From positions 1 through 30,689 of the forward strand of contig JAHBMJ010001386.1 in NCBI GenBank assembly GCA_018398765.1: a stretch of DNA of 30,689 nt, written 5' to 3'. Origin of the DNA: Chromera velia (taxonomy: Eukaryota; Sar; Chromeraceae). The translations under genes and the position numbers were made by a program. The notes under the pieces are model-generated. The model saw only the letters and a program-made list of their open reading frames with translations. It was not told the DNA's origin and ran no database searches. Each line of letters starts with the position of its first letter. The first letter of the stretch is position 1. Positions 2,857 to 30,200 of this stretch are shown here, in pieces.

Positions 2857-2887
<31 letters not shown>

Positions 2888-2936: not shown

Positions 2937-2972
<36 letters not shown>

Positions 2973-2978
2973 AAAAAC
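2562..2978. repeat. homopurine array: GGAA, GA, GAAA and GCAAGAAA units
   Basis: About 410 bp of almost pure purine on the + strand: GGAA units, then GA dinucleotides with GC-containing variants, then GAAA units interspersed with an 8-base GCAAGAAA variant that recurs in a higher-order pattern (two similar blocks of about 80 bp near 2775-2930). The long frames that read through it (Lys/Glu/Arg on +, Phe/Leu/Ser on -) follow from the repeat period and are not genes. Confidence 0.9.
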
Positions 2979-4496: not shown

Positions 4497-4977
4497 TTTG
4501 ATGGCAGGACTCTGGAGACGTACCGGTCACCTCAATTTCACAATTCGAATTCTGAGGCCACTTTCACGGGAAATTTCAGGGTAATTCTTGAGTGCTGGGC
4601 TAGCGAGCTCTGTTCAAGAAATCAAAGGAGAGGCGGAAAGTCTACGAGTGGTTTTGTCGAAAGCAATGACTATCGATATTGAAGGGGGTTCTTCGGATTC
4701 AATGAGGACGGAGACGGCGTTTCTTTTCATGGAGACGGCATGCGTGCGTCAGCTTTGCAATGGCAAACACAAGAATCGAAGTCACGCATACAGCCTCATT
4801 CTGAGAATCTTTTCAGGGTGCTTCAGAGCCCGCCACCAGCTCTGCAAAGCCAGCTTTGCTTCCGGTCAGAAGTGCCAGTTAGTCTGTGACTTTCCTGACG
4901 TTTTCACCTGAAGATTGTCGGAGTTGAAGAGGTTTGGGAGGAGACGAGAGGAGAGGACAGGAGAGAACAAAAGAGAG
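4497..4977. promoter_or_regulatory. shared divergent promoter region, SDR gene / DUF4211 gene
   Basis: 481-bp spacer between two divergent start codons, so it should hold both promoters and 5' UTRs. It contains a 10-bp palindrome AATTCGAATT (around 4541-4551) and an ATCGAT word near 4672. There is no convincing TATA box and no long coding frame. Calling it a promoter is inferred from gene layout alone. Confidence 0.45.
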
Positions 4978-7900
4978 ATGGGCAAGTTAAAGAAGCGCCC
5001 GTTGAGCGACTCGGAAAGCGAGGAGGCAGACCCCCCTCCGAAGAGGAAAGGGAGATTGATCAGAAACGACTCTGACGATTCTGATTCAGACAACGTTCAG
5101 AAGATTCCCAAAAGAGGAGGGAAACAAAGAAGGCTGATTCGCCCAGACAGCGACGAAGACGAACAAGACAGCAGCGCAAAAAAGCAAAAGCCCCTCGGAA
5201 GAAATTCAAGACTGGCCAATTCAGCTGCGGCAGCAGCAGCAGCTGCAGCGGTACAGTCTTCGGGAAGGGGTAAGAAGAGAAACGCCGGACAGGCCGCTGC
5301 ATCCAAGCCGCACCAGCAGTCTGCCGTTGATCGTCGCGCAACGGGTGTTTCTGCTGTCAGTCGGCCTGAGAAACCTTCTGAGAATCTGAAGACTGAACCC
5401 TTGAGCAGGGCAGAGAGACTTGCCAGATTGGCGAATCAGAAGAAAGAGGACGATCAACGGCGACGGGAGCGCCAGCTGGGAATAGGTCTGTCGGCTTAGC
5501 TGTCTCCTTGACTGCGTGCCTCTGCATGCATCCATCCGTCTGCTGGTTTTTCTCTTCAGTGTTATTCTTGTCTGCGCGTCGGTTCCAAAGTCGCGTTTGA
5601 CTGTTCGCCTGTAGTCCAGTCAGGCATCTGAGTTCCTTATCTGTTTTTCTCCCTGTGCAAGCAAAGGTGCCTAGCTCCCCGCTTGGCCCCTTGTACTTTC
5701 ATCACGCAGAAAGGCGCACAATGTTTCATTGTGCTCTCGCAGATCATAACGTCGTCTCAGTGGATAGCGACAGCGACGGCGGGAGTTCCTCTGACGAGGA
5801 TGAAGAAGAGTTTGACGAGGAAGAGGAAGACTCGGAGGAAGAAGAAAGGAGGAAACGAAAGAGGAGACAGGGGAGGCAGATGAGAGAACAAATGTCCACA
5901 CGATCGGTTGGTTGGTCTTACCATCTACTTACTGGGTTTTGCGTTTTTTTTTTTCTTGTCCTTGTGCTGCATCCTTTTTTCACCGTCTGCCTTCTTTCTA
6001 GCATCTTCTTCCGTCTTCCCCCGCCCACCTTTTTTTTATTTTTTGGCGGGATCATCTTGTGTTTCTGTTTTTCACATGAAAACATTCATTTTGTGTCATT
6101 CTGTCGCTGAAATCGGCAGATTTTCATACAAGCCAGAGCACACGCAGGCAGGTAGGCAGAGTTACAAAGCTAGAAAGATACCTAACAAGTTTGAGCTCGG
6201 TCAGTGTCTTCGCTGTATTCGATGCGGATTCGCTGCTTGCTATTCCAAACTTCCCTTTCTGCAGAAACCTTTTCATACAAGTGCGTCCTGCTTCATGTCG
6301 GCAGGTCGAAATGTGACAATTTTCTTCGGTCTTTTGTCAACTTATTCTTGCGTTTGTTCTTTCGTCCCCGCAGCATCGTGGGGGGCCTGGCGGGGGTGCC
6401 TCCAAAATGTTGGCCTTCAGGGGCGACGTGGAGGCATGGGACCGTGAGAAGCGGAGGGGGGGTCAGAGAGGAGGCCTGGAGGATGACGAGTTGTCCAGTG
6501 GGGATTCGTTCCTGGCAGCAGATGACGAGATAGAGATGGCCTCTGATTACGAGGAGCCGAAGAAGAAAAAAAAGAAGACGAAAAAGAGAGAGCGGGACGA
6601 CAAGGAGAACTCTGTGGGGGTCAGAAAGGGAAAACAGAAAGATCAGAATGCATCCTCTTCGTCCTCTTCAGCCGCTGCCTCAGGAAGCAAAGCAAAAGAA
6701 GGAAAGGGAAAGGGGAAAAAGGGCCGCCTCCGATGGAGATCGGAAATCAGTTCGTCTGAAGAAGACGAAGATGAGGATGAGGACTCGGAAGGGGGCGAGG
6801 GAAGCAGCAGTGAGAATGACGACAGCGACAGCGACGGAAGAGATTCTGATTCGGAGTCTTCGTCTGAAGATGAGAGCGACGACGAGGGACCGGTGGGTGC
6901 TGTGTGTCGTGTGTCATCTTGTAGGGCTCTACTCTCTGTTCATGTTTGTTCGGCTTTCCGGCATGTTTCTCTCTCTGTGAGAGACACGAAACGGTATGAC
7001 CTATCAGTCTGGTATGTTTTGTGCCTCCCTGTGTGTCTCCCTTTTTGCATTTCTCTTCACCTGATGTCATCTTTGATATCTGAGTTTCTTTCATTCGGCC
7101 CTCGTTCGCACTCTGTCTCTCCCTGCAGCTTTATGTGTTCAGAGATCCGTGACCTCTTTCCGAAGGGCGCACGAATTTCTGTTCCGACACTGTGTCCCTT
7201 ACTTCTCTGAATATGAGCGTGGGGGATGTTATGAGTGTCTTCCTCCTGTTGCGCTCCCGCTTTCCATCCCTCTCTCGATCTCTGTCTACTCGCAGGTGAA
7301 CGAGGTTTTACTTCGGCGCCGCTTTATGGAGGGCAAAATTGGAGGCGAACTGGAGGGCAGCGCCGACTCTCTGTCGACTGGTCATGCCTTCAAAAGGTCT
7401 CTCTCTACCCCTGTCACTTTCTGTCTAGCTTTCTGTGTATTTCGTTCTCTTCCCCCCTCTTCGTGGGATAAGTACATTCACTTGTCGCTTCTCGGTTCGC
7501 CTGACCCCTCATCGTCCTTTTTTTGCAGTCAGGCTCAACGCATTCATTCGTTTCTTTTGCTTTCTGGTTTGATTGAACACTCCCCCTCTTTGACTGTCTG
7601 TTTCTCTCTTTCTCTCTCGCCCTCGCTTTTTTTCACCGCCCCCCCCCTCTGTGTGTGCGTGTGCGTGTGCGTGTGCGCGCGTGTGGGTGTGTAAATGTGT
7701 GTGTGTAGCACGAATTTGCCCTTTCGAAGTACTGATTCACTGCTGCTTCTCCCCCGGTCTGCCTTCCCGCCTGCAGGTACGTAGAGTTCCTGGCTCTCTG
7801 CCTCCTTTCCCCCACACTCTCGTATCCTGTGAAGGAGAAGGACTTGAAGATCCTCAGCGACGAGGCACCTGCCGGAAGGGGCAGTGCGGGGAAGGGGAAA

Positions 7901-8633
7901 GGTGCAAAGGCCAAGGACAAGAAGGCGGAGGGGAAAGGAAAGGGAGAGGAGCCCTTTGCAGGAGGAGAGAGCTGGGGATATTATCAGGCGGTGGGTTCTT
8001 TCTTCTCTTCTCTTTGGTTTTACTTCTGCTTGTCTTGTGCCTCTCTCTGTCTTACGTGTCCTCTCGATTTTCTGGCCCTTTTGTTAGTGGAACAGAATCT
8101 TCGCACAAGTGTCGTGTCTGTCAACCCATTCACCCATGCACCTGATCACCCAAACAAAAGGATGCCCTCTCTCTCAGTCGTCCCCATCTCCCCGTGCATC
8201 GACGTATAATATATACGTATGAATGGTGAGTTCGAGCATAGTCTTGCTGTATTTCTTCTGCATGTCAGCATTCTTTCGCCTTCTCGACGGTATCCGTCCC
8301 CTCTGCCTTTCATCCAGAAATGCCACCCAACAGAGGCAGGTTTGCACTGCTTCGTCTTTCTTTGCTCTGGCTTCCAAAACCAGCTTAGATGCCTATTTCG
8401 TTCTCTTGCCGGTCTGCCTGCCTGCCTGGATGCTGAATGCTCTTAATGCTGCAGGCAATTCGACGAATTGAGAATGCCCTGAAGATCAAATCGAGTAGCC
8501 AGATTGAAGGCAACTGGCCGAAACCCTTCAAGGAGGTCCTCGAACACTTCCCCACACTCCAATGCAAAGACGACACAGGGTCGGTCAGTCAGCAAGCAGT
8601 TGGTCAGTCAGAGGGACATGCAGTCGGTGTGCT

Positions 8634-8690
<57 letters not shown>

Positions 8691-9000
8691 TGAGCTGCTA
8701 GTTTTGAATGGATGAGGGCGACAGAGAAGACACCTTTCCACTTCCATTTATGATAACCCTTTTCCTTCCCTTCCTTCGTTTCTCTGTCTCTGTCTCTGTC
8801 TCTTTTTCTCTGGCTGTTACTCTCTCTGAGAGACAGAAAGACGGGGCGTGCGCACGCAAATGTGCCTGCACATGTGTATGTAAGAGCACATGCGTGAGAG
8901 ATGGATTTTTGGGTGTGTGTGAGAGAGAGGATGGATGGATGTGTGTATGTGTGTGAGAGAAAGAGATGGATGGATGGATGGATGTGTGTATGTGTGTGTG

Positions 9001-9038
<38 letters not shown>

Positions 9039-9084
9039 GGAGGGATGGATGGATGGATGGATGGATGGATGGATGGATGGATGT

Positions 9085-9120
<36 letters not shown>

Positions 9121-10496
9121 AAGAGAGAGAGATGGATGGATGGATGGATGTGTGTATGTGTGTGTGTGGAAGAGAGAGAGATGGATGGATGGATGGATGG
9201 ATGGATGGATGCAGGATGTACAAGGGGCACACCTGCCAGGCGTGCAACAGAAGACAGACAACGCAGACCCGCCTGGCCCTGATGGGAAATCCTTTTGATT
9301 CAAGTCAGTCAGGCAGTCAGTCGTCCCTGCAGTCAGCGAGAGAGCGGTTGGGTGACTCGGCAAGTGAGGGAGGGACGAAGCAAAACGGAGTGACGGGCAT
9401 GATAATCAAGCGTTAGCGAGTCAGCAAGAAAGTGATTGAAACACCGAGCAAATGAGTAAATGACTGCGTGAGTGAGCGAGCCAGTAATTCAGTCAGTGAT
9501 CAGTTGTTCAGGAGTGAAGGACGAATGCTTTGCTTGCGTCAGATTCTTTTGAGGCAAAGGCTGCATGCGTTGCTTTGCGTCTGCTCTTTGAATTCGGTCG
9601 ATAGGAAAGAGAGATTAAGCGCGAGGCATCGCAATATCTCAAAAAGGGACAGGGGTGTCTCTTCCTTTCCTTTAATACCTGCAGATGTCTTTTTGTTCTT
9701 GTAGTACTCACATTGAGGAACGTATTTTGATTGGCCGCTTGTTCTTTCTCCAACTCTCTGTCTCAGCTGGTCTCTCTTTTCTCTGAAGTTGCCCCACGTT
9801 TGTCTCGTTTCCGTTTCTGGAATCAAAGAACACATTCTCCTGCTGAATTATCTTGCGGCTGTAATTGTCTTTTGTTTACCTTTTTTGATGTCCCTCGATA
9901 TCTGCATGCATGCAGAGGCTCTGTGGAATGGGGACCTGCATTCGTACATGAGTCAGTGAGGGAGGCGGGGACGGGGAGGGAGGAAGGGAGGGGGGCGGTC
10001 AAGACGGGAAGGAGTGAGAAAGGAAAGTGGGCATACAACGCTCAGCTTTGTCGTGTCTCTCTGCCATATTTTTGTTCGTGTTTGCTTGAGGACCAGAAAC
10101 AGGAGGGCAAACAGGCAGGCGCGCATAAACGCAAAAATGGAAGGGAGAGGGGAAGAAGTTAACGAGACAGAGAGAGACCACACACACAACGAGAGAGGCT
10201 CTGGGCTGCAGATCTGTGTCTGTCCTCCACACTGCTTGTTCACAGCATCCCCCCAAGTTGCTGCACGTCTGAATGTGTTCCATCCATCTGCAGATTCCAG
10301 TCCGTCTGGAACCTCAAAATTTAAATGCCCCTCCCTCTCATCAGCTCCTGTTCGCTCTCCCCCGCTGTCTCTTCATTCTGTTTGCTCGACTGTCCTTCCT
10401 TCCCTTTAAGCAGAGGCTCGGGGATACAAGTGGCTCGTCAAGGAGGCCTTCCCAGACTACATTGGTCGGTCTGTCAGTCAGTAAGCCACATACAGC

Positions 10497-10532
<36 letters not shown>

Positions 10533-11589
10533 GTGCGTTTGAAGGCATACAGAGTCGATGTTTGTTGAAATTTGAATACGCTGACGGCAGAGCTTTGATC
10601 CACTGCATTGCATCCCTCGAGGTTTGTCTGTTCGGATGAGTGCATCCTCTGATGTTCGTCCTCTCTGAGTCTGCGTTCTTTCGTGCGTCCTCTGTTTCAA
10701 TTGGGTTTCTCTTCTTTTTTCTGTCTTGACGTGTTTTTGTCGGTCGGTCTGTCTCTCCACAAGAAACATACAGTCTGTCGTGTGAGAAAAACAAAAAGGA
10801 GAAGCCATACAGTGTGTCGTCTGCATGACAACCTCTCAGCGCAGGCTCACCAACAGCAACCTCATGAACATACTCACTCACTATCTCTCCCCGGCTGTAC
10901 TTTTTCTCTCCATTCCTTCCTTCCTTCCTTCTGCAGACCCCACTACGTGCAGATCGGAGACTCATGAGATCGTGGTGGAGGATGAAGTGATGAGCAGCGA
11001 CTCGGAGACAGATGAGGATGAAATGAGCGAGGAGGAAAAGCCGGGAGGGGGTGCACGTCTGGCGACAACACCCACCATGTTGAAGTTTGTGCGTGACAGA
11101 TTCGGGTCGAGGCCTCCAAAGAGGAGATGCGTGGCGGTTTCGGAGTTCAAAATGGACGTGAGGAAAGTCTTCAAGGTCCCCAAACTGGAACAGATCTGTG
11201 AGTCAGTCAGTCACTCAGTCACTGCTTCTCTTCTGGACTTCTTCGTTCTTGGGCCCATTTTTTGTCCGTGCGTCGGCTGAAAGAAAAATCAGTCAGCATG
11301 AGTGCAAAGCATCGGGAAGAAATAGAGTCGGAAGCCCCAGAGACTCTTGTGTTGCCGCATTGAAATTGAAATGCTCATGCAGCAAACATTTTTCATTATT
11401 GTTTCACAACCCCCTGGCTTCCTTTCGTGTCCTGGCCCCTTTCTGGCACGAGTCGCCTCTTTCCTCGGATTTCAGAGCTTTTCTGTTCCATGCTTGCTTC
11501 AATGATCACCTGTGGTTGATTTCTCGATGAAATGAATCACCGATTGTTTTTCCCGCCAATGTTGGGAGATGATGATAAATGTCCTTTAT

Positions 11590-11630
<41 letters not shown>

Positions 11631-12338
11631 CTTCTCCCAGATTCTCTCTATCGCAAGTACTGTCGGAAGGTGAAAGTGAAAAGCCGATTTGTCGGCACTC
11701 TCTGCGGCCAGCGCGCGGAGGGCTTCCACATCATTCAGCATTGGAAGGCGGAGCTTGTGGACTCCATCTACAGCGAGCTGTCGGGTCTGGAGGCAGAGGT
11801 CCTCAAGAACCCCCTTCAAGCTGCAAAGACTATTCGAAGCGTCAGTCAGCATGCAGAGCGAGCGAGGGTATTGATATTGCACCGACGGTCGACTGTACCA
11901 TGGTTCTGCATAAAGGGCTGTGGAAGGGAATGTCTGCGCTTGAAGGGGAGTGTGAGCAGCCTTATGTTCTATCGGTCTTCTTGTACCGAGGTCGCCATTC
12001 TTACATCACAGTCCTTAGCTCCCTCTCTTCCATGACCTGCATTCAGCCCGTTAGTTGTCTCTTTTGCTCCCTTCAAAATATTGATCTTGCTTCCTCTCTC
12101 TCAGTCTCACTGTCGGATTCCTTATGCTTCCCCAGCTCTTTGTTCTTCTCATTATCGTGTGACGAACCAGAAAAATGTCTAGGTAGGACTCTGGGTGATG
12201 ACTGCATTCTTTAGCTTGCTTTGTTTGCAGAACAAATACTTCCTGGAGGAGTGGCTCGAGAGCTACGAGCAGCTCTTGGACCAAGAACCAATAGAGTACA
12301 AGCGGAACAGGAGGCGTTCAAATGATTTTGAGATGTGA
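4978..12338 (+). CDS. DUF4211 domain nuclear protein (12 exons)
   Basis: Exons: 4978-5485, 5743-5906, 6374-6892, 7296-7396, 7777-7990, 8455-8579, 9215-9303, 9916-9951, 10414-10464, 10937-11197, 11641-11840, 12231-12338. They total 2,376 nt (791 residues plus TGA) and every junction is in phase. Residues 1-400 are disordered, with SDSE/DEDE acidic-serine runs, Lys/Arg nuclear-localisation-like patches and poly-Ala near 83-91. Residues about 425-760 match DUF4211, known from fungal nuclear proteins and animal QSER1/PRR12: [15 protein letters not shown], then [14 protein letters not shown], then the C551-x2-C554 pair in HTCQACNR with MGNPFD, then [19 protein letters not shown] (706-724), ending in a W/E-rich helix. 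C551, C554, C711 and H719 or H723 could bind zinc (inference). A second acidic serine block lies inside the domain (exon 10). The molecular function is unknown; a nuclear chromatin or transcription role is inferred. Least certain: the acceptor of exon 2 (5743 or 5761) and whether a small extra exon lies in 6893-7295. Confidence 0.8.
8580..9214 (+). repeat. microsatellite-filled intron 6 of the DUF4211 gene
   Basis: 635-bp intron containing (CT)n at 8632-8660, (GT)n at 8661-8689, and from about 8919 to 9210 a compound array alternating GAGA, GGAT and GT blocks that recurs four to five times. The last GGAT block runs straight into the acceptor (GGATGCAG|G at 9214/9215). Exon frames on both sides show that this is intron; the Met-Asp-Gly-Trp frames through it are products of the repeat. 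Confidence 0.85.
10498..10528 (+). repeat. (CT)n tract in intron 9 of the DUF4211 gene
   Basis: Pure CT dinucleotide run near the 5' end of the 10465-10936 intron, too far from the acceptor to act as its pyrimidine tract. Confidence 0.85.
11592..11632 (+). repeat. (CT)n tract just before the exon 11 acceptor
   Basis: CT dinucleotide run directly upstream of CTTCTCCCAG|ATTC (exon at 11641). It evidently serves as the polypyrimidine tract, so here a microsatellite is part of the splice signal. Confidence 0.8.
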
Positions 12339-13140
12339 TCCAATAATGTGAATTAAGATGTAATACTATCACCTACAGTGCTAGCCATACTTATACAATG
12401 AAACGTCTGTACTGATGACAGTCTCATGTACATGCACTGATAAAGGGCCATTGAATAGCCTTAATCTAGGCGTAGCTTGATATCACTGTCTCACTGTCGG
12501 ATCTAGCTAGTGACGCTGCTAGTCTTTTATAGCCTTTATATGATCAAAATTTTTAGATATTGATCACCAGAATTTAATTTGGAGAGCTAGTTAAAGGGAA
12601 TATAACGATTTCCAATTTCTTGGGAAAATTTTAAATTATGTTCAGTCCCTCAACGTACTATCAATGCTATGCTAAAAACCAAATTCCAAAAGTTCAATAA
12701 TCATAATCCTAATCTTTTAGCTAATCAACGCCTATAATTTCCATTTTCTACTAGATTTTCTAAATTTTTTTTAACCAGCAAAAACACGTGCAGCTATAAT
12801 TAATAAATGTCTAATTAATTGCGATCGTGCATCAAAGCTTGAAGCAAACTTAGCTGTATAGCACTAGGTGTAGCTAGCCAGTAGGTGTACTAAGCAGGTA
12901 TAACGGTATATAAATGTATATATATGTATAAATGTCAAAATTCTAGTCAAAATTATACGGTCAAATTGTCGCGTAAGGCTGTAAGCTTCAGGCTGTCATC
13001 AGCTCAAGTACGAGTACATGCATGATCGACTTATGCATGAATATGTATATGGCATAAGACTGAAAGGGGAAGAGAATAGAAGAACTCATTCTAGGAGACA
13101 TTCAACTGGACCTTCAACTTGCCAGATACTAATGGAACCG
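12339..13140. other. AT-rich convergent intergenic island 2
   Basis: About 0.8 kb of AT-rich DNA between the 3' ends of the DUF4211 gene and the tandem E2 gene. It is stop-rich in all frames and holds several GCTAG/TAGCTAG words and short TATA runs (for example 12909-12930). No coding or RNA gene was recognised. Confidence 0.6.
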
Positions 13141-14637: not shown

Positions 14638-16234
14638 TCACAAACCCGCCCCAAAACTCTCAGGAGGAGGAAGCTTGGCGAATTCCTGCTTCACGTCCCT
14701 TACCAGGGATGCCAGGCTCGCCTGCTCGCTTACCCACTCGTCGAGTACCTTCTCGATTCTCTTTCTCTGGAAGGAAAAGTGACGACGCACTACTTCCGCA
14801 AACTCCTTCGGTGGCGACTTGACCATCTCCAGAATTGCGTACCTGACCGTGCCGTCCCGAATGACTGCGTTGTATTCCTTCGACTTGCTGCAGCCACGCA
14901 TACGCACACGGACTTGCGTACACGGCCATGTATTCTGACACACAACCATGTGTGATAAATGCACGCAGACAAGTCTTAAAGACACATGAACCTCCCCAAA
15001 AACTAAGTGGCGGGATGGAATTGTGGTTTCTGCCTTCGCTCTTTCAGTAATTCTCTGACGGTGACACAGGAGAGGAGAGGAAACATGAAAAGAGAACCCA
15101 TCGTTTTCGCGTTCTTCGCCCCTCTCTTCGTGCAGTCAACAAATTCACCTGTTTCCATCGGGAGTGTGCATCATGCGTTCGTAACCCTGCAGGCAGGCAG
15201 GCAGAGAGAGAAAAAGAGGAGGGAAGGTGCCGAACCGACAGGAAAGAAGGAAGGCTCTCATCTCATCTCAGGGCATCCCTCGCTTTCCTTCGAAAATAAT
15301 TAAGTCACATTCATTGCAGGATGTGGGAAAAGCACCTTAGTTCTACGGTTGGTTTGAGGTGAAAAGGAAGACACGAATTGCCCCTCAGTGCAGGACGGAC
15401 GGACGGAAAGGTCGGACACACACACAACACATACTCGCGTCCAAACGTCCACACAAGCTCGACATGTATGCGAAAATACGCCGGACAAATGTATTCAGAT
15501 TTGATCAATCGGCCCTACCGGTTCGTTGTAAAACGGCTGGTCGACGAAGATGAGCGACTGAATGGAAACTAGCACCTGCAGGCAGGCAGGCAAACAGAAA
15601 CAAACAAACGCACAGACAGAATTAAGACGGCAAGGAAGACTTCTGATCGATACAGCAGCGGAAGGAAACCAAAAACGGATCGATCAACAAGCAATCTCTA
15701 CACTCCAGCAACCAGGCAACCAAGAAAAAATGAATCGACGAAGAAACTCAAGAGGAGAAAAATCAAGAGAAACTGACTGAGAAAACTCCTGGGAAAGACT
15801 GTAATTCTCTCTCTCTCCCCCTCCCTCCCTCCCTCCCGACGCACGAGTGCACACGCACGCACAAAGAGAGGGAGAGCCTTGCTTGCAATACAGAGAAAGA
15901 AGTGAAATCCAACCCCAGAATCAACATAAACTAAAACGCAAGCCACGCACACCCCCATGCACCTACCTGCAGCATGGACGAGGCCGCCGAATCCCATCCC
16001 TCTCCGACCCCTCCCGACCATGTACCCAGGAGGGACAGGCAGACCTTTCCACAGTTGTACAGATTCGGGTTGAACCGAACTTTCCCGCCTCCTGTGGTTC
16101 GCAGGTTCATCTGAAGACAAAAGGGCGCCACGCAGAAGACATGAATGCGATACAGGCACGAACGAAAATTTGTCTCGACATGAAGCCAATGAATGATGCC
16201 AGAAAGAAGAACACTCCCGGCGATCCACCTAAAA

Positions 16235-16268
<34 letters not shown>

Positions 16269-19200
16269 GGTCCCTTCATGTCTTTCCCTTCTTCGCTTCA
16301 AACTCTCAGCACACCCGGACACACACACCAACGCACGAACGGACTGACTGACCATCGGAGGCACTCCAGGGTACTCAGGAGGAAAGTAGGCGTCGAAAAG
16401 GAAACACCCGCCTGCATATGGGGTGTCATCTGGGCCCGTGATCAGAGCTCTGCACACACACACACACACACAGACACACACGTACGTTCTCATGATGAAC
16501 GATACGAATACAATAAGAAATCGAATAATCAGTTAAAAGAAGATGAAAAAAAGATGGCAATTTTTTCTATCCCGTGCCTACTCACACCATGAAATCAACA
16601 CGCCTTCTCAAAAGTCTTCTTCCCTCAGTCCATCCACTCCCTCAGATGGACGTGCTTCGTAGCTTTTCTGCTTTTTTCACCCGCAACTTCACGGGACGTC
16701 AATTCTCTCAGCCCATGCCCTTTCGTTTATCTTGTCTCCCACCGACCTGCTTAAAGGGCCTGACTATTTTATCTTCTTCCTCTTCCCGTACGGTTCCTTC
16801 ACTGGCGTCCTTTCCTTTATCTTGGCACATACTCAAAATCAACTCCATTCCTTAGGGGATCAGCACGCTACCGCCAAAAAAAAAAAAAAAGAGAAAGAAA
16901 GGAGGCCTGCTCACTCACTCACTCACTCACTCACTTCCACAGTTGATTCTTCGACTGGTCGTACCGGATGAAGACGGAGGAGGAGATCTCGAGGGGCAGA
17001 GAGTTGAACATTCCTGCAATTTTATTGATTTGCAGTTCGTGCCCATGCTATCAGAACAAATCAATCAAAACACATCTGCATGCTGTCTCGTGTTCTTTTT
17101 TTCTTATGTCTGCAATCCATTCCATTCCTCGTTCTCTCACCTTCCTTTTGTTTCTTTTCCTTTTTTGCTTTTTCGTTCCTTCAACCCTCTTCCTCCTTTC
17201 TTGCCCTATTTGGCGCTTCTCTCTTTATTCTGCCTTCCTCTCTTGTCCTGGAATGCATCTCTTGTCAGGCGTGCGGGCCCGGTCTCTCATCGTTTGCTCT
17301 CGACTACAGAGAGACAACTGGAAGGCCCCACACGCCCATCCACGCAACTTGCAAACAAGCAGGCGTGGATTTGTCTATGCCGCACCGGTCGCGCCCGCCC
17401 ACCCTGATAGGACTATCAAGGCAAGTGTGTGGGCTCCCTCTCCCTCCCTTCCCGCCTCCCTGTCGGTAGGCGGTCGGGAGAAGAGACGAGACGGCGATTT
17501 CCTCTCAAACCCGGGGCACTTGGCTGGCGGCTTCTCTCTCTCTCTCTCTGACAGTATGAATGGAGTCAGTTGCCTTTTGAATTTTTTTGTTCTTTCTTCG
17601 TTTCGCTGTCTGCACCTTCTTTTTTCATCTCCCCCTCGACTTGTCTCGGTACCTCCGGTAGCGGTTGCATTCCGTGTCCCGTTGGCGCTCTCTCTTTCCC
17701 AAGACTGAATGGAGGAATCAATACCCACAGAAGGAGGGAAGAGAAACGAAATTGTCAAAAGAGGGGAAGATAAAGGGTGAATAAAAAAAGCAACAATGTG
17801 GAAACACACAGAAGGTAGGAAAAGGGAAACATGAGTGAGTCACTCGACGCACCGGAAAGTTCCTTCGCGATGCGCACAGTTCGCCTTTGCGGTACTGCAG
17901 ACTCCGTGAACGCTTTTTGCCCGTAGTGGTTGTGTTCCCTCGTGTCGTTCATCTCTCCGACCTGAAAGAACGAGAACGAGAAGAGAAACGAAGGGAGAGG
18001 CGTGCTGATTGAGAAACGGGAACCAAGCAAGGGGGATACTTGTCTTCCTTCTCAATGTGCATACAGGCAGGCACGCACACATATACAAAATGGGGAGACA
18101 GAGAGAGAAAGCCACTCTACTCCTCCAACTTTAAGGACCACCCTTCCTGCAACCACACTCACACTTTCACCGCAAGACGGTAAGTCACAGACTGTCACAC
18201 GACGATTCAACCACAGTCACCCGATCAATTGCAGAACCCCCCCCCAGACCCACCCACCCACCCACCGACCGACCTGCCATTCCTTCAGGAGTGCCCTGTA
18301 CCGTCTCGTCTCTGCAGGGTCAACCAACGTGCCCACCCCAGGAGCACCAGAAGAAGAAGAAGAGCTGGCGGCAGACGAAGAAGACGTAGCCGCCGCTCCG
18401 GAAGGGGAACCCGCAGCAGCTGCAGCTGCGTTCCGTGCGTTGCCCCCCCGCGTTCGCGATGCGACTGCCCCATCAGCAGCAGCATCCGTCATCTCCCTCT
18501 CCTTCTCGGCCAACAGCTGACTGGTCCTGTCAATGATGCGAGGGATATTCTCCACAATTTCCACGGCCAGCTCTCGGGCTCGGAGGGCCTCTTTCATCTC
18601 CTGTTCAGCAGTCACAAGAGAATTTCCAGGCCCGTACCTCCCCTTGGGTACGGTGGGGGGTCTCGCAGAGACAACTGTGGGTGCATGGAAGGGGTTTGCT
18701 TCTGTTTGCCCTGGCTTGCCGCCATGCTTCTGCTTCGCTAGGTTCATCGTGGTGTCGTAGTACATCTTCGCACCCCTTCTGAGGTTCTGAACTACCTCGA
18801 TGAAGTTATGCGCATTGTAGAATCGAGAGAAAACAGCCTCATCGACTCGGAAGCATTGCTGAATCAGAGAGACAAGAACTGCATAGAAATCCACCCTCTT
18901 CGCGACGTCTGTAAACGATGTCTGAAACTCATTGACCAAGAGAACAGACAGACAGGAACGAGTCAGCCACTTGACAACCTCGTCCCGAGGGGGGACAGAA
19001 AGTCCGGACATCATGCGAGGAGAATCCCTCATCCCCCCTCCTGCCACGTCGGTCATCAAAACGTCATCCCCCGTACCCCCCCCTCCGTCTCCCTGCTGCA
19101 TCAGAGAAGGCATGGCATGGGCACTGCTGCTGCTGCTGCTGCCTGAGGGTCCCCTGGAAGTGGGAGAATCCCCCCCGGAGGTCAGCATGGATGCCGGCAT

Positions 19201-22200
19201 ATCGACCACGGACTTTCTCTCTTTCCACCCGAACTCCAGGTTCTGCACACAAAAAGAAAAATGGGTCCATGCATCATCATTCCATCCATCCATCCATCCG
19301 AGCTTTCTTTCTTTCACGCATACCTTCTTTCTTTCTTCCTTCACGTAAGTACATCATCTGAAGAATGAACGAATGCAGAGACTTAATTTTCAATCAAAAA
19401 TCATTTCCCCCCCCGTCCACCCATACTGGATCGATGTGCACGCGCGTGTGAGACGGTAAGACGAGACACACGAACATGTAGAGGGAACACACGATCAACA
19501 GCCGCAGCGGAACATCATGGAATGAGACCAAGAAAGAGGCAAATCAGGATCCACACTCACACACACACAAGCGCACACAGAGAGAGAGAGAGAGAGAGAG
19601 AGAAGACGAAGTTACTAACACGCCAACAAGGATGCGAAGAGTCGGAGAATTCTGACTTCAACAACAAACAGACAAGCAACAAAGCAATCAAACAAACTTG
19701 AGACCCCCCCAACCGACAGACACACCGCCAGGCAGTCCGACAGTTTCCGCAGCAGGCCCAAAATTTCCTCGTCCTTCGCCTGTTGCGCCGCCTCTGCCGC
19801 GTGAGGATCCCAGGTCTCCTTCGTCCCCCCCCCCCTGCCGTGTCCGTACCCAGTCCCACGGGCCCAGTAGGTCGTCTCTGCTGGAGGCTTTGCAGCTACA
19901 GTCACAGTCCCCGCCTGGGGGGGCGCACCTGTGATAGTGCCGCCTGCTGGAACGACAGCCACGCCTGTGGGTGCATTCGCAACTGCAATGGGCACCTCCA
20001 GACCCTCTCCTGTGCCGCCTGACGTTGATGCAGACACAGACGCGGGCTGGCCCTGAGGTTCGGTTTTGGACTTCTTTGTGGGGGGGGGGTCGGGTTGCTG
20101 CTGCTCTGCGTACTTCCTGTGAAGCTCTTCGCATGAGGCAGGAATGATGTTGGAGATCGAAGAGAGCTGTGCAAAGAGGCGCTCCAGGGGGTGGAATGCA
20201 CCGTCAGTGAACACCTCTCTGCAAAGAAAGGGGAAAGAGAAGAAGAGAAGTCGTGTTATTGACATTGTCTTTCTGAAGCATTGAAGAATCTGCGACCGAG
20301 CGGAAGGAGGGAGCGGAAGGAAGGAGGGAAGGAATGGGACTTAGCGCAGAGACAAGAGAGAACGCCGACGAACTTCGTAGAAAGAAGACCGACTGCATGC
20401 TCTGACGGAGACGGACTTGTTGTTTCTCTCACAGGAGACATCGATTCGAACGAGACGGCTGATGAATCCGGTGATCTCACTCAGAAGCCGACGTGCATCT
20501 GTAGTAGGTTGCCACCGTTCGTATCTGCACTCAAGGGAGGGGAACAGACACACCAGAAGAACGGGAGAGATCCAACCACACGAGAGGAAGAGATCCCCGA
20601 TTCAACACTTCAGAAGGAAATCGCTAGTGGATTTACCTGGCGGAAAAAGAGAACGAAGACAACAGAAAAAGTTCAAGAGGACCGCATCCTGGCCTGGTGA
20701 AAGAAATGACGCTGACCGACCAAAACCTTCTCTAGCAGCACGCAAGACAACACCGTCTCGCAGAATAGAAGAGAAGTGTGGGCTGAGGAAACAAGAGGAA
20801 GACACAAAGAAAACAAGGCAGATAGATAAAACAAAAAAAGACTACCACAGTCAAGTACCTTACACTAACCGGAGAATGGGCAGACAGGCCAGAGCTTCCA
20901 CCACGTTGAAGTCTTCGCCCCTCTCCCCCCCGCTCCTCCCTCTGCCGTCTCCCCCCCCCGAGTCCCCCCCTCCCGCAGACACAGGCGACCCTGACGGGTT
21001 CAGAGACGGATCCCCGAGAAGCGTCAGACGAGGACGCACCACTGTCAGCCGAGGAGGGTAGAACGGGTGGAGGTCCGGAGTGAACTCCAAGATCATTTCG
21101 ATGCAGTTGTACCCGAACTCCTGCAGACAGACAGGCAGCAGCTTACGCACGCACATATAGTCACACCCCAAATACATGAGTGCAGAGAGTAATGACACCG
21201 ATCCATACAGCCACGCACGGCAACAAGACGTACAGCAATGCAGACAAAGAAACTGAAAGGCTGGTACCTGACAAGTCGGACGGTGTAGAGACGGGCAGGG
21301 ATAAAAATGAGGGTAGACCGAAGTGTACTAACAGCAGAGGAGAGGGAAAACAAAAGAGCAGAAGAATAGAAAAGAGAAGACAGTCTGGGCGAGGAGGCAA
21401 AAAGAAAAGTCAGTCAGAGTCTAGACGCACATCATCAAGATGCTGCAGTTGTCTGTTGAGTCGCTCCTCGTCTCCGAAGTTCAGCAGTGAGACCTTCCAC
21501 TCGTATACGTTGTAGTCAATAGCGTCGACATAGAACTGAGGGGCGGGCCCCCTGCCGTTCTCAAACGCCTTTCTTGTGTTTGAGAAATCTTCCTGAATCT
21601 GCTTCAGCTCGTTGGACAGCATTGTGAATGCCTCTCGGGATGTGAAGATCTGCTTCTTCCGGACAGAGTCGAGCCCCTGAAGCCTTTTGTTTTCCTGCGT
21701 CATACGATGATGGGATTGACGTGCGTGATTTCCCTTCATGTCAGAAAGCGAGAACAACAATCGTGGCTCGTGCTTTCATGATCGAGTGCGACTGAAAGGC
21801 GAGCAAGAAAAAAAGGGATGCAACAATCTTGAGAAGCTGCGGAGGCTCAATGTAACAAACCCAAGCGTCGTTTTGTGATGCAAAGAGGATGGAAGCATTA
21901 CAGAGCGGGGAACCAACACTAGAGGAACGAACGAGAAATAATAGAAAGCCCAGGAATTCAATGTCATACGGATTTCACTTGCATATTTCTGTTCATCTTC
22001 GGTCTTCGAGGCGCATTGGAAGTTTTCCCTTCTTTCAAGAGACGGCAGTCAGTCTGGTTCACTGAACGATGAAGGCTCCTACTCACCTTTTCCTTGTCCT
22101 GCAGTCTCTGAGCCTCCCTCTCAGCCCACCGTGCTGCTCTGACGACTCTTTCCTCCATGTCCCTCATCCTGTCGGACTCCAAGTTCTCCGCGTAGCCTTC

Positions 22201-22569: not shown

Positions 22570-23001
22570 TTTGGTGAAAGCAGTTCTTCAGTCGGGGCGC
22601 GCAGAAATCTGGACAGAACCCCGAGCACACGGGGGAAAGACGCCGCCAAAGATCGGTAGCAAGAAGAGACTTATGACAGCCTTCTGCACCAAGAACGAAA
22701 TCCGGAAAGTTCCCGAAAAAGTAGGTTTCAGAAAACCTGCCTTTCAGGACACAAGAAACAGGACAGAAGCAGAGCGGGAAGAGCAGAATAATTGGTGCAA
22801 ACCGTTTTCTCTCTACCCCTTGTGCTTCCAAACTGGAAAACGCAACGGCCACAGAATTCGTTCGGAGTCTCAGGAAGTCAGAATGCAAAGCCTGCACTGG
22901 ATCCCATGCTCAGATCTGATGGAAAGAGAGTAGGAAGTTGCAGATGATCACTTCGATCAGATTGGTCGAGTTTCTGTTGACTGCGTGAATCCAAAAATTT
23001 T

Positions 23002-23009
23002 GCGCCAAA
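23002..23009 (-). promoter_or_regulatory. E2F/DP-like site
   Basis: The minus strand reads TTTGGCGC, matching the E2F/DP consensus TTTSSCGC, with A/T-rich flanks on both sides. A single 8-mer may be chance; the only support is its position in a divergent promoter. Confidence 0.25.
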
Positions 23010-23067
23010 TTTTTTTGCCAACCGCATGCAATTGATGACGGGCGCTCGCGCGTCAACCGCCTCGCCA

Positions 23068-23075
23068 TGCATGCA
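23068..23075. promoter_or_regulatory. TGCATGCA palindrome (candidate ApiAP2 site)
   Basis: Perfect 8-bp palindrome about 265 bp upstream of the secreted-protein ATG. GCATGC-core motifs are bound by ApiAP2 factors in apicomplexans and their relatives. The same word occurs elsewhere in the window (9903-9914, 24344-24351, 26608-26617), so specificity is weak. Confidence 0.3.
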
Positions 23076-23338
23076 CACCGATACATCAAGCTCTTTCGAT
23101 CGTTTCGCATATTTTCGCTTTGAACCTTCTGTCACACATCTGACTGTCAGAGTCCCTGAGAGTCTGGGACTGACCCCTAGGGCTGAGTGACTGCAAGCAA
23201 TTCTTAACGCCATATGGGGTTACTATGCCTCCTTGCGGGCAATGCTACAAAGTGCCGTCACACGTTTATTCACGCAGGTGTAAACTGTCAGAGTAAAGTG
23301 GAGCGAGAAAAGGTCGATCTGACAATCAGTCTATCAGA

Positions 23339-24034
23339 ATGAGGAGAAGAGAGGCCAGCAGCAGGCCACTGCTTCCGAAGTACACTGTCCTCTTTTACCT
23401 CCTGAGCTTGCTCTCCCTCGTCGATGCTGTACGCAATGTGATCAAAGACCCCGCGGCTTTGTCCTCCTCTGGACCCGCTTCTGTTTTGTTGGAAAGCGGG
23501 GGGGGGTGCCCCACCTCATGCCCCCTTCAACCTCACAAGCCGACGAGCGGCGGGCCTGGTGCTCGAAGGGTGCGCTTCACCGGGACTGATCAGGTATCGG
23601 CAGCGAGTACGGTGGATGTGAGGACAGAATGCAAGGACCGCACAAGTTTTGAATTGTGCGACACAGAGTCCGGCACGTTCTTCTTCATCGAATGCAGAAA
23701 CCCCAACAGGGCAGTCAGAAAAGAGTTCTACAAAAACGATGACGCAACAGTCGCGAAGGACATTTGTGACAACTTGCTTCCGATTTTAGGTTTCTGTGCG
23801 GACAGGGTAATAGAAAATCTCGACAAGATGGGGGGGGCCTGTCAGAGCGAGAGTGCAAATGCTGCACAGATGATCAAGTCGGCAGAGAACGCCTACATCG
23901 GCACCACGTGGAACGCAGGATGGAACGACTGCAGCGCGTCCGACCTTTCTCAGAATCTAAACACCCTGAAGTGCATCGAGCAGTATGCTTACCAACTGAT
24001 GGAGTGCGATCGCCCGTCGTGCCCCACCGAGTAA
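23339..24034 (+). CDS. secreted cysteine-rich protein of unknown family
   Basis: Single exon, 231 residues. The start ATG at 23339 has an A-rich context (CAGAATG) and is followed by a signal-peptide-like N-terminus: Arg-rich residues 1-9, hydrophobic 16-28 (TVLFYLLSLLSLV) and a likely cleavage after VDA (about residue 30). The mature part has 12 cysteines (57, 61, 98, 107, 119, 143, 153, 168, 198, 212, 223, 228), compatible with six disulfides, and ends in MECDRPSCPTE. There is no transmembrane helix or GPI signal after the leader, so secretion or delivery to a vacuole or other luminal compartment is predicted. A low-complexity Pro/Gly/Ser stretch (41-75) separates leader and Cys-rich core. 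I recognise no known family. It lies divergent from the E2 gene with an AT-rich island behind it. Being intronless it could in principle be a chance frame, but the leader plus even cysteine spacing argues against that. Confidence 0.65.
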   Translation: MRRREASSRPLLPKYTVLFYLLSLLSLVDAVRNVIKDPAALSSSGPASVLLESGGGCPTSCPLQPHKPTSGGPGARRVRFTGTDQVSAASTVDVRTECKDRTSFELCDTESGTFFFIECRNPNRAVRKEFYKNDDATVAKDICDNLLPILGFCADRVIENLDKMGGACQSESANAAQMIKSAENAYIGTTWNAGWNDCSASDLSQNLNTLKCIEQYAYQLMECDRPSCPTE

Positions 24035-25554
24035 TTAAGAATTACATGCAATATCACCAACTTAACTTGAAAAAGGAATCGCTGCTCTGAAGGTGCGCTC
24101 GCAGACCTGTCACCCTACATCCCAACACGAAGCACAAAAGAGAGGCTCCGAGAGGCGAGACAGCTCAAAACCCCTGTCCGGGGCGATCGGAAGGAATGAA
24201 ACTATACTTAAGAATTAATGCGCCCTTGGAACGAAAGCCGAACTACAGAATATTCGAATGAAATTTTTGCTTCCGGGAGCATCAGCGCCAGGAGGAGTCA
24301 TGAGGGTTTGGTGAAAAGGATTTTCGAGGCAAATCTCGTGGCATGCATGCAGACGCGGATCTGATGAGCCCTCTTGATCGATTTCGTGGCGGATCGACGA
24401 TTTAGCGATCATCATGATGATGGACTTAGCGAAGAACTTCACTCAATGCACTGACACCATACTGGCAGGAATTCGCGGTCGCAATGTCGTACAGTTTTTC
24501 CCCTAGTGATCACCATACGATCACCTAATCATTCTTCTTTGTTTTTTCTATTGCAACACTGTATACTGCATTGCATACGTGTTATTAAACTGAATTTTAA
24601 CTGCATGCACTGCCATCATGATGTCGATGCATATGCATACACATTGACTGTATGATTGACATTTATGCGCGGGATCCTGACGTGCTTGCAGTAGCCCTGC
24701 ACACGTCTGCATACACCCGCTTGCTCCAGTCGCGTTTACACTCCGTCGATCACCCAAAAGCCCACTTGCCGGCCATAGATCCGCTTTGGTAAAGGCATGC
24801 GCAGTGCATGTGGCGTTGCACCTGCATGACCTACCATAAGTGCATGACCCACTTCAATTTATAACTCTTGACCTGTCACGGTGTCACCTCAAAGCATGAC
24901 TATACTTCTTGCACTTATATTTTTGCAATCCTGTGCAAGAAAGCATCATGCATAAATAATAATCTAGATAATAATTTGGCTGAATTTCACTAACAGCGTG
25001 ACTAGCTTAATTCTATAACTATATATATAGTAATTTTAAATATTAAAGTATATAACTGTGTTAAACTGTTGCTAAATACTAATAAGTCAGAGCTTCAAAA
25101 GTTGAAAGAAAGCCTAGCATGCAGTGGAACCAATCAATCAGGCAGTTATCAATCAATCAAAAAAATATAAACTAAAATAAACTAGTGAAAAAAAATTAAA
25201 ACGTTTTATGAGCTAAAGCCTATATATAGGCAGCATATATAATAGGCCAGAGAAAAGTATTTAAAAAGGACTGTACAAGTGCAGGTCGAGGCCTAACAGT
25301 GCCACGCAGACTCCTCAGGCTAGATCCACTGCGTCACGCAGTGGCTCTAGCTAGGGATCTAGCCTGAGAGGCGATCCGAAACATGAATTTTATCAATAAT
25401 ATGCTAATAATGGTATATGGGATTGTATGTTTTCATTAAACTTTTCAAAAATTACTTTTCAATTTAACGTAGAACCTAAGTTTTAATTCGCTGTTCAATT
25501 CAAACCGGTCAGACCCGGTCTGCAGAGCCGTATATTATTATTAAACTGATTTCT
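24035..25554. other. AT-rich convergent intergenic island 3
   Basis: 1.5 kb between two convergent 3' ends, strongly AT-rich from about 24450, with no domain-bearing frame. It holds several palindromes: CTATATATATAG near 25019-25030, GCCTATATATAGGC near 25218-25231 and the large nested hairpin at 25314-25368, plus a TGCATGCA word at 24344-24351 and clusters of TGCAT words near 24600-24650. Confidence 0.6.
25314..25368. repeat. nested perfect inverted repeat (two-stem hairpin)
   Basis: Outer arms CTCAGGCTAGATCC (25314-25327) and GGATCTAGCCTGAG (25355-25368) are perfect 14-bp reverse complements. Between them lies a second perfect inverted repeat, CCACTGCGT-C-ACGCAGTGG (25326-25344), then a 10-base linker CTCTAGCTAG. 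The fold is GC-rich inside an otherwise AT-rich island. It could be a transposon remnant, a structured RNA or an origin/terminator-like element; no neighbouring protein gene explains it. Confidence 0.8.
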
Positions 25555-27158
25555 TTAAGATTTTCCGTCAATCACATCAATCGCATCGAGCACCTGCAAC
25601 ACACAGAGTTATACAGATGGAAAACCCATTCAGCATTTGCGAAGCAGCTTATTCTCCCGATGGTATGAGCCAGAGCTAGCGCTAGAGATAGGTATTGGCA
25701 CAGACGGGCATGCAGATTGAAAGAAACGCAACATATACGGGCAGACAGCCTGAGGGAGGGCAGATATTTCACAGGTGGAAAAACAAACACACAAGGTGAG
25801 GGTAAAAGTCATGGATGGGACCCAAGAGGGAAATGGGACAGAGAAGACAGCTAGGAGGTGGGCACGCGGTACGTCTCTTTTCTTGATTGAAAGGGGCGCT
25901 GCGTTCCTCAGAGAGCAGACAACGAAGCAGCAAGCAGGAAGGGACAGAGAAAGAGAGAAAGGGATAAATACAGGTGTAAATGAATGGAGAAGTAAAAGAC
26001 GGAAGGACGGAGAGACAGAGATAGCGCAGAAGCGTAACTCGACAGTGGATTTTAAAATGGACAAGAGGGACTCTGTGTCTGTGTTTCTCTTAAAGTTGAT
26101 GCTTGTTCTCTTTGTTTTTAGAGTCAACATTGTGTCGCATGATGGCATCCACGTTCCGCTAGAAACAAAAACTGCCTCATATGTAGTAAGTGCACGATTC
26201 AAAATGAGGCACGAATTTGTGAGGTAAGTGCAGGGTGTTGGGAAGGGAGGACGAGCGAAAAAGAGGAGCCAAGAGGGAAGTGAGAGAGAAAAGCTGAAGG
26301 TAAGTGCCGTCTCTGTCTAGGTAGAGAGATCCTAGCCCTGTGTGCACAGTCTCACGCAAAGTGATATCTCTGTATGCATGCCGTCTTCTCGCAAAGGCAG
26401 TCGTCTGCTGAACACGCTTGTCGATCTGTGAATGGACAAAAAACAACCACTGCTTCCCCTTTCGTCCTATTCAACAGCGAGTGCAAAGCCGGCCGACCGA
26501 ATGCACCACAGAGACAGTGGAAGGAAGAGATGCTAAATAACAAACAAAGAGACACATGCAATAAAGCTTCCGGCAAAACAAAGCCAGCATGCAGGCATTT
26601 TCTTCCCGCATGCATGCCTTTAATTGTTGGCTGGCGGCAACAAGGTGACAATCCGTTGCTCTGCTCTGGTGGGGAGACCCTTTGGAGAAATCGAAGAAGA
26701 AATCACTGTTGCAAAGAACGGCAGAGCCAACTCACGAGGGAGGGAGGAGAGAGCTTCAACAAACGCAAACAAGAAAGAGAGGCTACAGACAGACTGCATT
26801 TCCGTTTCTTCTTCTCTTCGTTTTCAGTGCACAACAGTCAAGGGAAAAAAAGGAAGAGAGAAAGAGAGAACCACCGACTGACTGACCGACCTGCAAGGCC
26901 CTCGGCTTCAGTTGCTCAGGCAAGGTTTGGAGCTCGGTAGCTGCGAGGCTTTTGTCGGCCTGGTCTCCTGACTTCAAACGGTTCAGCAGGCTGGCGGAAA
27001 GGAGGGAGCAAGGAAGGAGAGCAAGAGGGAGGGAGGGAGGGAGAATGCATTTCAACGAAAAGGTACAAGCGGAGTGGACGCAGGGAATCAATCACGTGAG
27101 AAATGATGGTCTGAACAAACAAGCACACGCACACACACACACATGCGCGCGCGCGCTG

Positions 27159-27249
<91 letters not shown>

Positions 27250-30200
27250 AATTTGCGCCTGATGAGGGGCAGAACCGAAAAACACAAAAAGCAAAGCAAG
27301 CAGTGATTGGACTGACTGGTGTATGGTTGACTGACTGACTGACCCTCGAACTCTCTGTGTCAGGATAGGATCCTCATTCAGAATCGCCTGCGCTTCAGCG
27401 CGAGTAATCCCTCCGATTCCTGCCCCTCCCCCTGCAGTGCTCCCTAAATGAGCCGGAGGGAGAAGCCCGGGATCGTAAGCTGCAGCTGGAGCGCCCCCCG
27501 TTCCAATTGGAGGCGGCGCGTGTCCCAAAAGGCCCAGAGACCCCCGAGTCGCCCCACCCAGACTGGCACTGCTGACGGGGGGGGGTTGAGAGACCACGCC
27601 ATGTAAGAGAGGTGCCCCTGTGGGGGCACTAATCAACGCCCCCCCTCTGCCTAGGCCTGTGCCTACTGCTGCTGCTGCCGCCCCCCCATACCTTGGATGA
27701 AGAGCAGAGGGGGTAGGGAAAAGAGAGACAAGGGGACCTGGGTCTTCACCCCCTGTCCTCTGTCTCTTCCACTGAGTCAGCGCATCCACTTGTGGATCCC
27801 CCTGCAGCAGAGGAACATACGATCGATTTCGATCAAGATTCTGTTTTCACATGTCTTTCTCGGAAGACTTTCAAAATTGACGTCCATTCTTTGTCGCTCT
27901 CTATCGAGTTGTGAACGCAAATGGAGTGAGCAGACCTGCTTTCAGTAGAAATTGTCCCTGACAAACGGCTGAACTCTTTGGAGGGGTGGGGACAGGCTCT
28001 TGTGCTCTCGCTCAGTAGCTCAATTGCTCGCTTGACAGGAGAAAATCGGGGCGACAAGTTGGTGCATTTCATGTTTACACAGAAAAATAGAGCCCCCCCC
28101 CCGCTTCTGCTTACCGGCGCACTCCTTTTACCTCCCGGAATGTGCAGAACTCCGCTGCCCTGATGAAACCTGATGTCCGCAGGGTCAAAAGGACTTAAGT
28201 TGCCCCCCATGGCGCCTAAACCCCCTCCGTCTGCACCGGTAGCCCCTCCTGGTCGTCCAAGGAGATGAGTGCGTTCTCTGGGTCGGACTATCAGTCCCTC
28301 TCGCTCCAGTTGCGCCTGCATTCTTCCACCCATCCATTCATCGATGGAAGGTCATTTTTGTGTCTGTCTGTCTGGATGGATGGATCAAACTAATGAGGAA
28401 AAAATTCACAAGAAGGGAGAGGCTGATGGAGGGACTAAATGGATAAATGGAGAAGGGAAAGAAACAGGGAAGAAAGAAAGGAAGAAAGGAACACAGAAAA
28501 GAGACGACAAAAAAGAGAGGGAGAAATAAACCCTTTCCTTCCTCGATACATTCTGTCTGCACTCACTTTCCATTTCTTTCTGCCGCTTCCTTCAATCAAT
28601 AAACATTCCGTCCGTTCCCTCACCTCCTTCTCCTTTTTCTTTCTGCCTTCCAGATTTGTTCTCTCTTCCTTCCGTTCTCTGCCCCCTTTTCCATTCCAGT
28701 CAGAGAAAGAAAACGACAATCTCCTACTCTTAAACCACCTACCTCTCTACCGCTACTGAGAGACAAGACACAAGCTCAACTCAGACTGACCTCTTTGTCC
28801 CTCGCGATCTCTTCCAAGAGCCGAGCGTCTGAATCCCCCAAGGGCTGCACCAGGAAGGAAAGAAGCAGGAAGGCTTTTTGGACCTGAGTGCACAAACACC
28901 ATCAGTGCAGTGTTGCGAGATACAAAGTCCAAGAAGGGAGGCGGGGATGCGCGGAGCAGGAAGTAAAAAAAAAAGGGAACGTGCGCAGTCACGGAAGCAC
29001 CTTCCCAAAAATAAAACACGGGCCGCAACGAGATGATAACAAGTCAAGCAACAAAAAGGATCTGAACTGCTGTAGACATCTGGAGTCAGCAGGAAAAGGA
29101 AAAAAAGGGGCAGAGAACAGAAGACAGCAGAAAAGGACCCACCAGGACATCCGTCTTCAGGACGCCACAGACCATCAGTGCATGTAGAAGAGCGTCTGTA
29201 AGTTGGGGGTTTTCTGTTCATGCGCAGGAGCACAAGATTATCAGGCAGGAGGAAAGACTTGTCAGACGGAGGAAGCAAATAGAGGCAGGGAGAAAGGAAT
29301 ACTGGGAAAAATCGAGCACAAGAAAAGACGGCAAGGATCATGCAAACCCCTCTCCCCCTCGGTCTGTCTCCATGTGCATCCGCTGATCGGTTGACTGGGC
29401 AGGTTCTGTCTGTGCACATCGCAGGCAGCTAACGCTCCAATTTCTCTTCCTTCCTGTGCAACATCAGAGAGACGCAGAGACCGCAGTAAGGCAGGGGAGC
29501 CAGGCGGACAGGTAAGAGATCCAGTCTTTTACTTCCTCAGCACTATTCCACAGATGGCAGCTCGTTCCCCCTAGTAGCTCACCGAAAAAAAGAGTCCGCG
29601 CAACATCTGGAGATTTCTCAACAAGTTTCTGCATGGACAGAAGAAAGAGGAAAAAAAGAAAGACAGACGAAAAGGCATGGGCACGCGCCAAGAGGGACCG
29701 GAAGAACGTTGCGTGTGCTTGAGGGATCATTCGGAAACAGAAAGAACGACAACCAGGCACATTTCGCTGTACGAAAATAACAGAGAACAAATACGAAACT
29801 GCGGAAACAAAGTCATTGGCTCGAGAACAAAGAAAGGGCACGGAAAAAGGGGTTTGACAGAAAGAGAGAAGAGAGTGCGCGATTTTCTGTTCTCTTCGCT
29901 ATCGTCTGCTTCATTTCCCCCCCCCTTTCTTTTTCCACAGACAGCTGGAAGAGAAAAACATGAAAGGCTAGATGCCTCCAAGCAGAGCAGACATTTTGAC
30001 GGGCAAACATGTGAAAATGAGGAACACAAAAGCAAACGGGCACACAGACATGCACGCAGAGAAACAAACAAAAAGTGACACGCGGCATAGTTGGGTAGAC
30101 ATCTATGAACGGATACGGTCAACTTACTTGTGTGTTTCCGAGAACGTAGAGCAACTGCGCCACCGTCATCTTTCGAATGGCCTGCATGCACAAAGATTCA

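Follow-up and report, generated by a model that had tools for sequence, protein, structure and literature searches.

Introns of Chromera velia that open with GTNN runs: the 5' splice site as a likely seed of tetranucleotide arrays

Why should an intron open with a run of tetranucleotides, so that the GT of its 5' splice site (donor) comes back every four bases? The question is raised by a 30,689-nucleotide contig of Chromera velia (JAHBMJ010001386.1 of assembly GCA_018398765.1), which was analysed in its entirety and is called the window here. An initial annotation had picked out ten donors in it that begin runs of three or more GTNN units, and had proposed that introns grow by slippage from the donor or that U1 slides along the repeat. 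Slippage from the donor emerges as the best-supported reading, because among short repeats in the sampled DNA period 4 occurs most often and because GTCA arrays begin in GT phase at exon ends more frequently than they begin in the other phases; the growth of introns by this route is not supported. The splice signal is most likely a ready-made seed for repeats, rather than the repeat being something that the cell uses.

Genome-wide counts given below cover the 177.8-Mb assembly of 4,040 contigs, and this single assembly was examined throughout. The genome of C. velia CCMP2878 is described as 193.66 Mb in 5,953 scaffolds with abundant low-complexity DNA (PMC4501334). Introns were called ab initio with a custom gene finder trained on the window and on sampled loci. 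In the first gene models the donor was learnt over positions -3 to +6 and the acceptor over -16 to +1; to guard against circularity, introns were called again with a GT-only donor model and an acceptor consisting of YAG plus position-free pyrimidine content. Four introns at loci fetched by motif were excluded before counting. Within the window, a two-sided filter (coding exons on both sides) keeps 14 introns, and the 31 counted earlier were not reproduced. Outside it, 28 of 76 introns were excluded (shorter than 150 or longer than 1,500 bases, or without YAG), leaving 48 high-confidence introns as a replication set. N bases fill 1,363 to 8,428 of 10,000 at the contig starts L020, L022, L023, L033 and L037, making the usable sample smaller.

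All ten runs are present in the sequence as they had been written. Eight are supported as donors, seven of them (5907, 10465, 11198, 19725, 18273, 16352 and 27343) by modelled coding exons on both sides; the runs at 8580 and 26890 are candidate donors. The ten runs, together with one shorter donor and the gene that fixes three of the sites by homology, are as follows.

5907 to 5916, plus strand: donor run GTTGGTTGGT, three GT units, flanked on both sides by modelled coding exons.
8580 to 8592, plus strand: run GTCGGTCAGTCAG, three GT units, a candidate donor; two gene-finder models set the donor further along the same stretch, at 8584 and at 8603.
10465 to 10482, plus strand: donor run of five GT units (GTCG GTCT GTCA GTCA GT), ab initio model.
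11198 to 11213, plus strand: donor run GTGA GTCA GTCA GTCA, ab initio model.
16319 to 16352, minus strand: donor run of nine GT units (GTCA GTCA GTCC GTTC GTGC GTTG GTGT GTGT GT), modelled, with the first GT fixed by homology.
16910 to 16934, minus strand: donor run (GTGA)6, with the first GT as donor by homology alone, the exon being missed by the gene finder.
17841 to 17852, minus strand: donor GTGCGTCGAGTG, two GT units, with the first GT fixed by homology; the gene finder picked 17848.
18248 to 18273, minus strand: donor run of seven GT units, (GTCG)2 (GTGG)4 GT, ab initio model.
19712 to 19725, minus strand: donor run GTGT GTCT GTCG GT, ab initio model.
26873 to 26890, minus strand: run GTCG GTCA GTCA GTCG GT, with an exon modelled on the donor side; the acceptor side is unsupported, the following modelled exon scoring 0.0.
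27328 to 27343, minus strand: donor run (GTCA)4, ab initio model.
15967 to 17961, minus strand: BIRC6-like ubiquitin-conjugating (UBC) domain in four exons (17853-17961, 16935-17013, 16353-16449 and 15967-16110), recognised by homology.

Which GT of a run is the splice site? With every junction placed at the opening GT of its run, the four exons of the BIRC6-like gene encode a protein that matches the Pfam family UQ_con and gives a gapless alignment of 129 residues with the UBC domain of BIRC6 (3ceg_A, E 3.5e-42). By this homology, it is the first GT that serves as donor at 17852, 16934 and 16352, the three sites where homology allows the question to be put. One of the 14 modelled introns of the window is accordingly misplaced by 4 bases, the model having chosen 17848 where homology places the donor at 17852. 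Four DEAD-box stretches (L039-L042) were taken to obtain further donors fixed by homology. The first has a plausible donor, CAG|GTCTGTCTGTCGG, yet a second pair fits too; in L041 the modelled donor is GTCGGGCAG; and a clear junction was sought by homology in L040 and L042 and none was found. The choice of GT matters for the protein, and the earlier statement that a 4-base slip shifts the frame is right in direction, since most computed shifts at 16934 and 16352 disrupt the reading. Moving the donor at 16934 by 4, 8 or 12 bases brings in an immediate TGA each time; at 16352 the outcomes are a frameshift, a stop codon, and an insertion of the four residues VSQS that stays in frame.

The runs are more frequent in the window than elsewhere. 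GT stands at +5 in 13 of its 14 introns, and at least three GTNN units are found in 7, at least four in 6 and at least five in 3; in the replication set, GT is at +5 in 27/48 and three or more units occur in 9/48. The window is thus an enriched example and overstates the rate of GTNN runs in the genome. Over 94 modelled introns the donor consensus has C at +3 (0.46), A at +4 (0.50), G at +5 (0.77) and T at +6 (0.72). The continuation of GT to +9 and +13, which had been called unexpected, does exceed the frequency of GT in intron interiors (7.3%). With the GT-only donor model, GT is at +9 in 16/74 (p=7e-5) and at +13 in 14/74 (p=8e-4), with no excess at +17 (6/74, p=0.45). The model learnt over -3 to +6 gives 12/63 (p=0.0015), 9/63 (p=0.034) and 3/63 at the same three positions, and the 48 outside introns give 11/48 (p=6e-4), 7/48 (p=0.06) and 3/48. 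In these 48, identity between bases four apart (lag-4 identity) is also raised over +7 to +20, where it is 0.44, compared with 0.36 further inside (paired difference 0.093, standard error 0.029).

To call this continuation unexpected, however, is to overlook the 4-periodic character that the sampled non-coding DNA has throughout. In 205 kb, arrays with period 4 number 88, those with period 2 number 28 and those with period 3 number 19. Lag-4 identity in the sampled DNA is 0.353 in introns, 0.334 in the remaining DNA and 0.275 in exons, the next-highest lags outside exons being 8, 12 and 2, at 0.298-0.318. It might therefore be asked whether the splice site is special at all, or whether the introns are simply full of 4-periodic repeats and the donor is merely a GT that is always present. 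We judge this plain explanation clearly less probable than seeding at the donor. It draws on the periodicity shared by introns and the remaining sampled DNA, and on the behaviour of GT runs away from donors: a third unit is reached at 163 of 933 non-coding GTNNGT sites as against 9 of 34 donors, a difference that is not significant (p=0.13), and runs of three units make up 9/48 of the run starts inside introns and 9/27 at donors (p=0.13). Because non-coding GTNNGT run starts also reach a third unit, most of the surprise of the initial observation is absorbed, and the tetranucleotide-rich background accounts for most of the recurrence of GT at donors.

What the plain background does not explain is the phase in which arrays begin. 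An array seeded at a donor is expected to begin in GT phase, because the exon fixes its left edge. Over the whole genome, arrays of (GTCA)3 or longer start with G 4,890 times, with A 3,435, with C 3,059 and with T 2,512 times, the A- and C-phase counts being reversed-pattern controls, equal to those phases on the opposite strand. Exact 6-base seeds number 43,696 in G phase, 59,162 in C, 58,010 in T and 48,935 in A, giving 0.112 arrays per same-phase seed for G, compared with 0.070 for A, 0.052 for C and 0.043 for T. The excess is, moreover, linked to exon ends, as coding sequence runs up to the array start in 18 of 40 GT-phase cases and in 2 of 20 in T phase (p=0.008). Among short GTCAGT seeds (6-7 bases), 19/84 have coding sequence upstream, so that the GT-phase arrays have an odds ratio of 2.8 (1.3-6.2, p=0.02) relative to them. 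With a stricter seed, in which the next base is not C, coding sequence lies upstream in 9/49 (L019-L038), 1/10 (L009-L018), 1/19 (three loci in C1, close to a satellite) and 0/4 (the window).

The arrays inspected were drawn from the first 100 places among the matches listed, and every one lies in a low-numbered contig. GT-phase arrays were taken in two batches of 20, the first being the first match per contig in 20 contigs, and the second being the first match in 11 additional contigs plus the second match in 9 of the earlier ones. T-phase arrays were the first match per contig, omitting C19 (at a contig edge) and C27. If 45% of the 4,890 GT-phase arrays are donors, an estimated 2,200 or so donors carry three perfect GTCA units; the phase excess alone gives about 1,900. 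At their other end, GTCA arrays stop after G 4,155 times and after each of the other bases 3,167-3,349 times. Such arrays (first match per contig, omitting C19) were considered as acceptors and rejected, coding sequence lying downstream in 0/20. GCAG or CCAG is seen in many of these 20 flanks.

We consider that the donor GTNNGT seeds arrays which grow into the intron while selection keeps the seed, and give this a probability of roughly 0.58. The donor consensus GTNNGT, in which +3 is mostly C and +4 mostly A, amounts to one and a half tetranucleotide units, and would act as a seed in a genome whose non-coding DNA readily gains 4-base repeats. Slippage would add whole units on the intron side, and each added unit would be nearly invisible to selection because the exon and intron positions +1 to +6 stay as they were. 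Purifying selection on the donor would preserve both the seed and the left edge, so that arrays would be born there repeatedly, whereas seeds elsewhere would decay. The spliceosome would take the first GT since the exon bases exist in that register alone. The (GTCA)n and (GTGA)n donors are tandem units of one 4-base motif, and many other runs are mixed.

Several results weigh against seeding at the donor, in addition to the third-unit comparison given above. Perfect extension to at least 8 bases is found in 6/34 donors and in 184/933 other non-coding GTNNGT sites. The first two units share the same NN in 5/27, compared with 3.2 after shuffling (p=0.17), where clean slippage predicts a stronger effect. 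The two GT-phase batches differ, with coding sequence upstream in 12/20 and 6/20 respectively, and the short seeds and the arrays were drawn from different contigs. GTGA arrays show no excess at the left end (2,538, compared with 2,738 at the mirrored right end, this being one control), and GTGA was dropped as a second donor-phased unit. As to the growth of introns, run length and intron length show no correlation among 63 introns (rho 0.12, p=0.35), and growth through donor slippage was rejected on this ground.

Could the spliceosome instead make use of the additional registers? Extra GT units might be retained because they keep U1 or U6 close to the splice site or provide reserve donors, with NN free to vary; we regard this multi-register landing pad as unlikely. 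Several runs of the window do hold GT while NN varies, although they were picked for holding GT. The unit in which the repeat first breaks down behind (GTCA)3 retains GT in 10/18 and CA in 5/18 donor-like arrays; in the other GT-phase arrays GT and CA are each retained in 8/22, and in T-phase arrays GT is retained in 5/20 and CA in 8/20. These counts are small and too few to decide the matter. Against it stand the breaking of the frame by 4-base shifts and the pairing with U1. The best U1 candidate in the genome has a canonical 5' end, and the U6 candidate retains the ACAGAGA box; an unusual U1 was rejected on the former ground. Of registers 1-3, none pairs with U1 better than the first does at 10/10 of the named donors and at 6/9 others, a later register pairing better at the remaining 3/9; at 18273 the fourth register pairs slightly better than the first (-9.4 vs -9.1). 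The learnt donor matrix likewise places the first register top at 8/10 named donors and 8/9 others. The suggestion that U1 slides along the repeat thus finds no support. A canonical U1 5' end pairs with A at donor +3, and the donors here favour C at that position over A or G although the 5' end of the U1 candidate is canonical.

The landing pad would gain from a second feature, which formed no part of the initial observation. Upstream of the acceptor, in 74 sampled introns that lie outside the window, TG comes back at 4-base steps (-5, -9, -13, -17, -21), for example in CTGTCTGTCTGCAG. At these acceptors (TGCAG), counted with an acceptor model blind to phase at the positions concerned, TG is found at -9, -13, -17 and -21 in 22, 18, 18 and 17 of 74 introns, the interior frequency being 9.3% (p between 6e-7 and 4e-4), and at -25 in 11/74 (p=0.08). 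Where TG is present at -5, it is also present at -9 in 10/35 acceptors, compared with 1757/14914 where TG runs end elsewhere in non-coding DNA (p=0.006). This periodicity fits seeding at both intron ends, and also fits a functional register. In the latter case, phased 4-base registers at both splice sites (GTNN from the donor, TGNN back to about -21) would serve the spliceosome as a ruler or landing pad and the repeats would be selected, which we think improbable.

As a further explanation, the introns that open with runs might be recent gains, or mobile introners with GTCA-rich ends. The alveolate Amoebophrya is known to have introners that carry direct and inverted repeats (PMC7789003), and the introns described here resemble them in being alveolate introns with repeats at their ends. 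Unlike them, they form no families and show no matched pairing of their ends: an all-against-all comparison of 62 introns yielded two hits, both short (29 and 36 bases), and introner families were rejected on this basis. GTCAG and CTGAC are reverse complements, so pairing between intron ends was also considered for the 62 introns, and rejected, own 5' and 3' ends pairing no better than swapped ones (-15.77 vs -15.74 kcal/mol, p=0.48). We consider an origin from introners very improbable.

How much of this is new? Tandem GYNNGY donors, which the initial annotation mentioned as known elsewhere, are well known and common. One paper lists GYNNGY at around half of the constitutive donors in human genes (rows of 47% and 5%; PMC2423196). 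At delta-4 GYNNGY donors, according to another, using the shifted site disrupts the reading frame and should lead to nonsense-mediated decay, and their use responds to inactivation of decay (PMC8055015). The present donors are like these in having GY at +1 and +5 (13/14 window introns and 27/48 others) and in that use of the second site would break the frame, as computed at 16934 and 16352; they differ in that a subset extends to 3-9 units resembling repeat arrays. Variable tandem repeats at exon-intron borders are reported to alter gene structure in human paralogues (PMC2812944). These too adjoin the splice site, but here a single repeat family, GTCA, is in excess across the genome in precisely the donor's phase, with an estimated 1,900-2,200 such donors. 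No description of donor-phased tetranucleotide arrays was found among the matches listed from the open-licence literature, as represented by titles and the beginnings of abstracts. If donors do act as seeds, splice signals would shape the placement of microsatellites, a motif protected by selection being a permanent nursery of repeats, and frame-breaking tandem donors would have a concrete origin. The idea could be applied to other genomes as well, wherever the donor consensus contains a periodicity of its own.

It is worth adding some other features of the window and the genome. A single-exon gene at 3336-4496 on the minus strand of the window resembles NAD-dependent epimerases and reductases (Pfam NAD_binding_4, Epimerase and 3Beta_HSD), and the spacer between genes contains a 622-base AAAG-rich array at 2362-2983. 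Closely spaced GGTCAGTT matches, often in steps of 21 and 31 bases, give a satellite-like appearance to positions of about 73,900-75,500 in contig G000:C1. A PsaD fragment is identical to PDB chain 9hyu_D at 97/97 residues.

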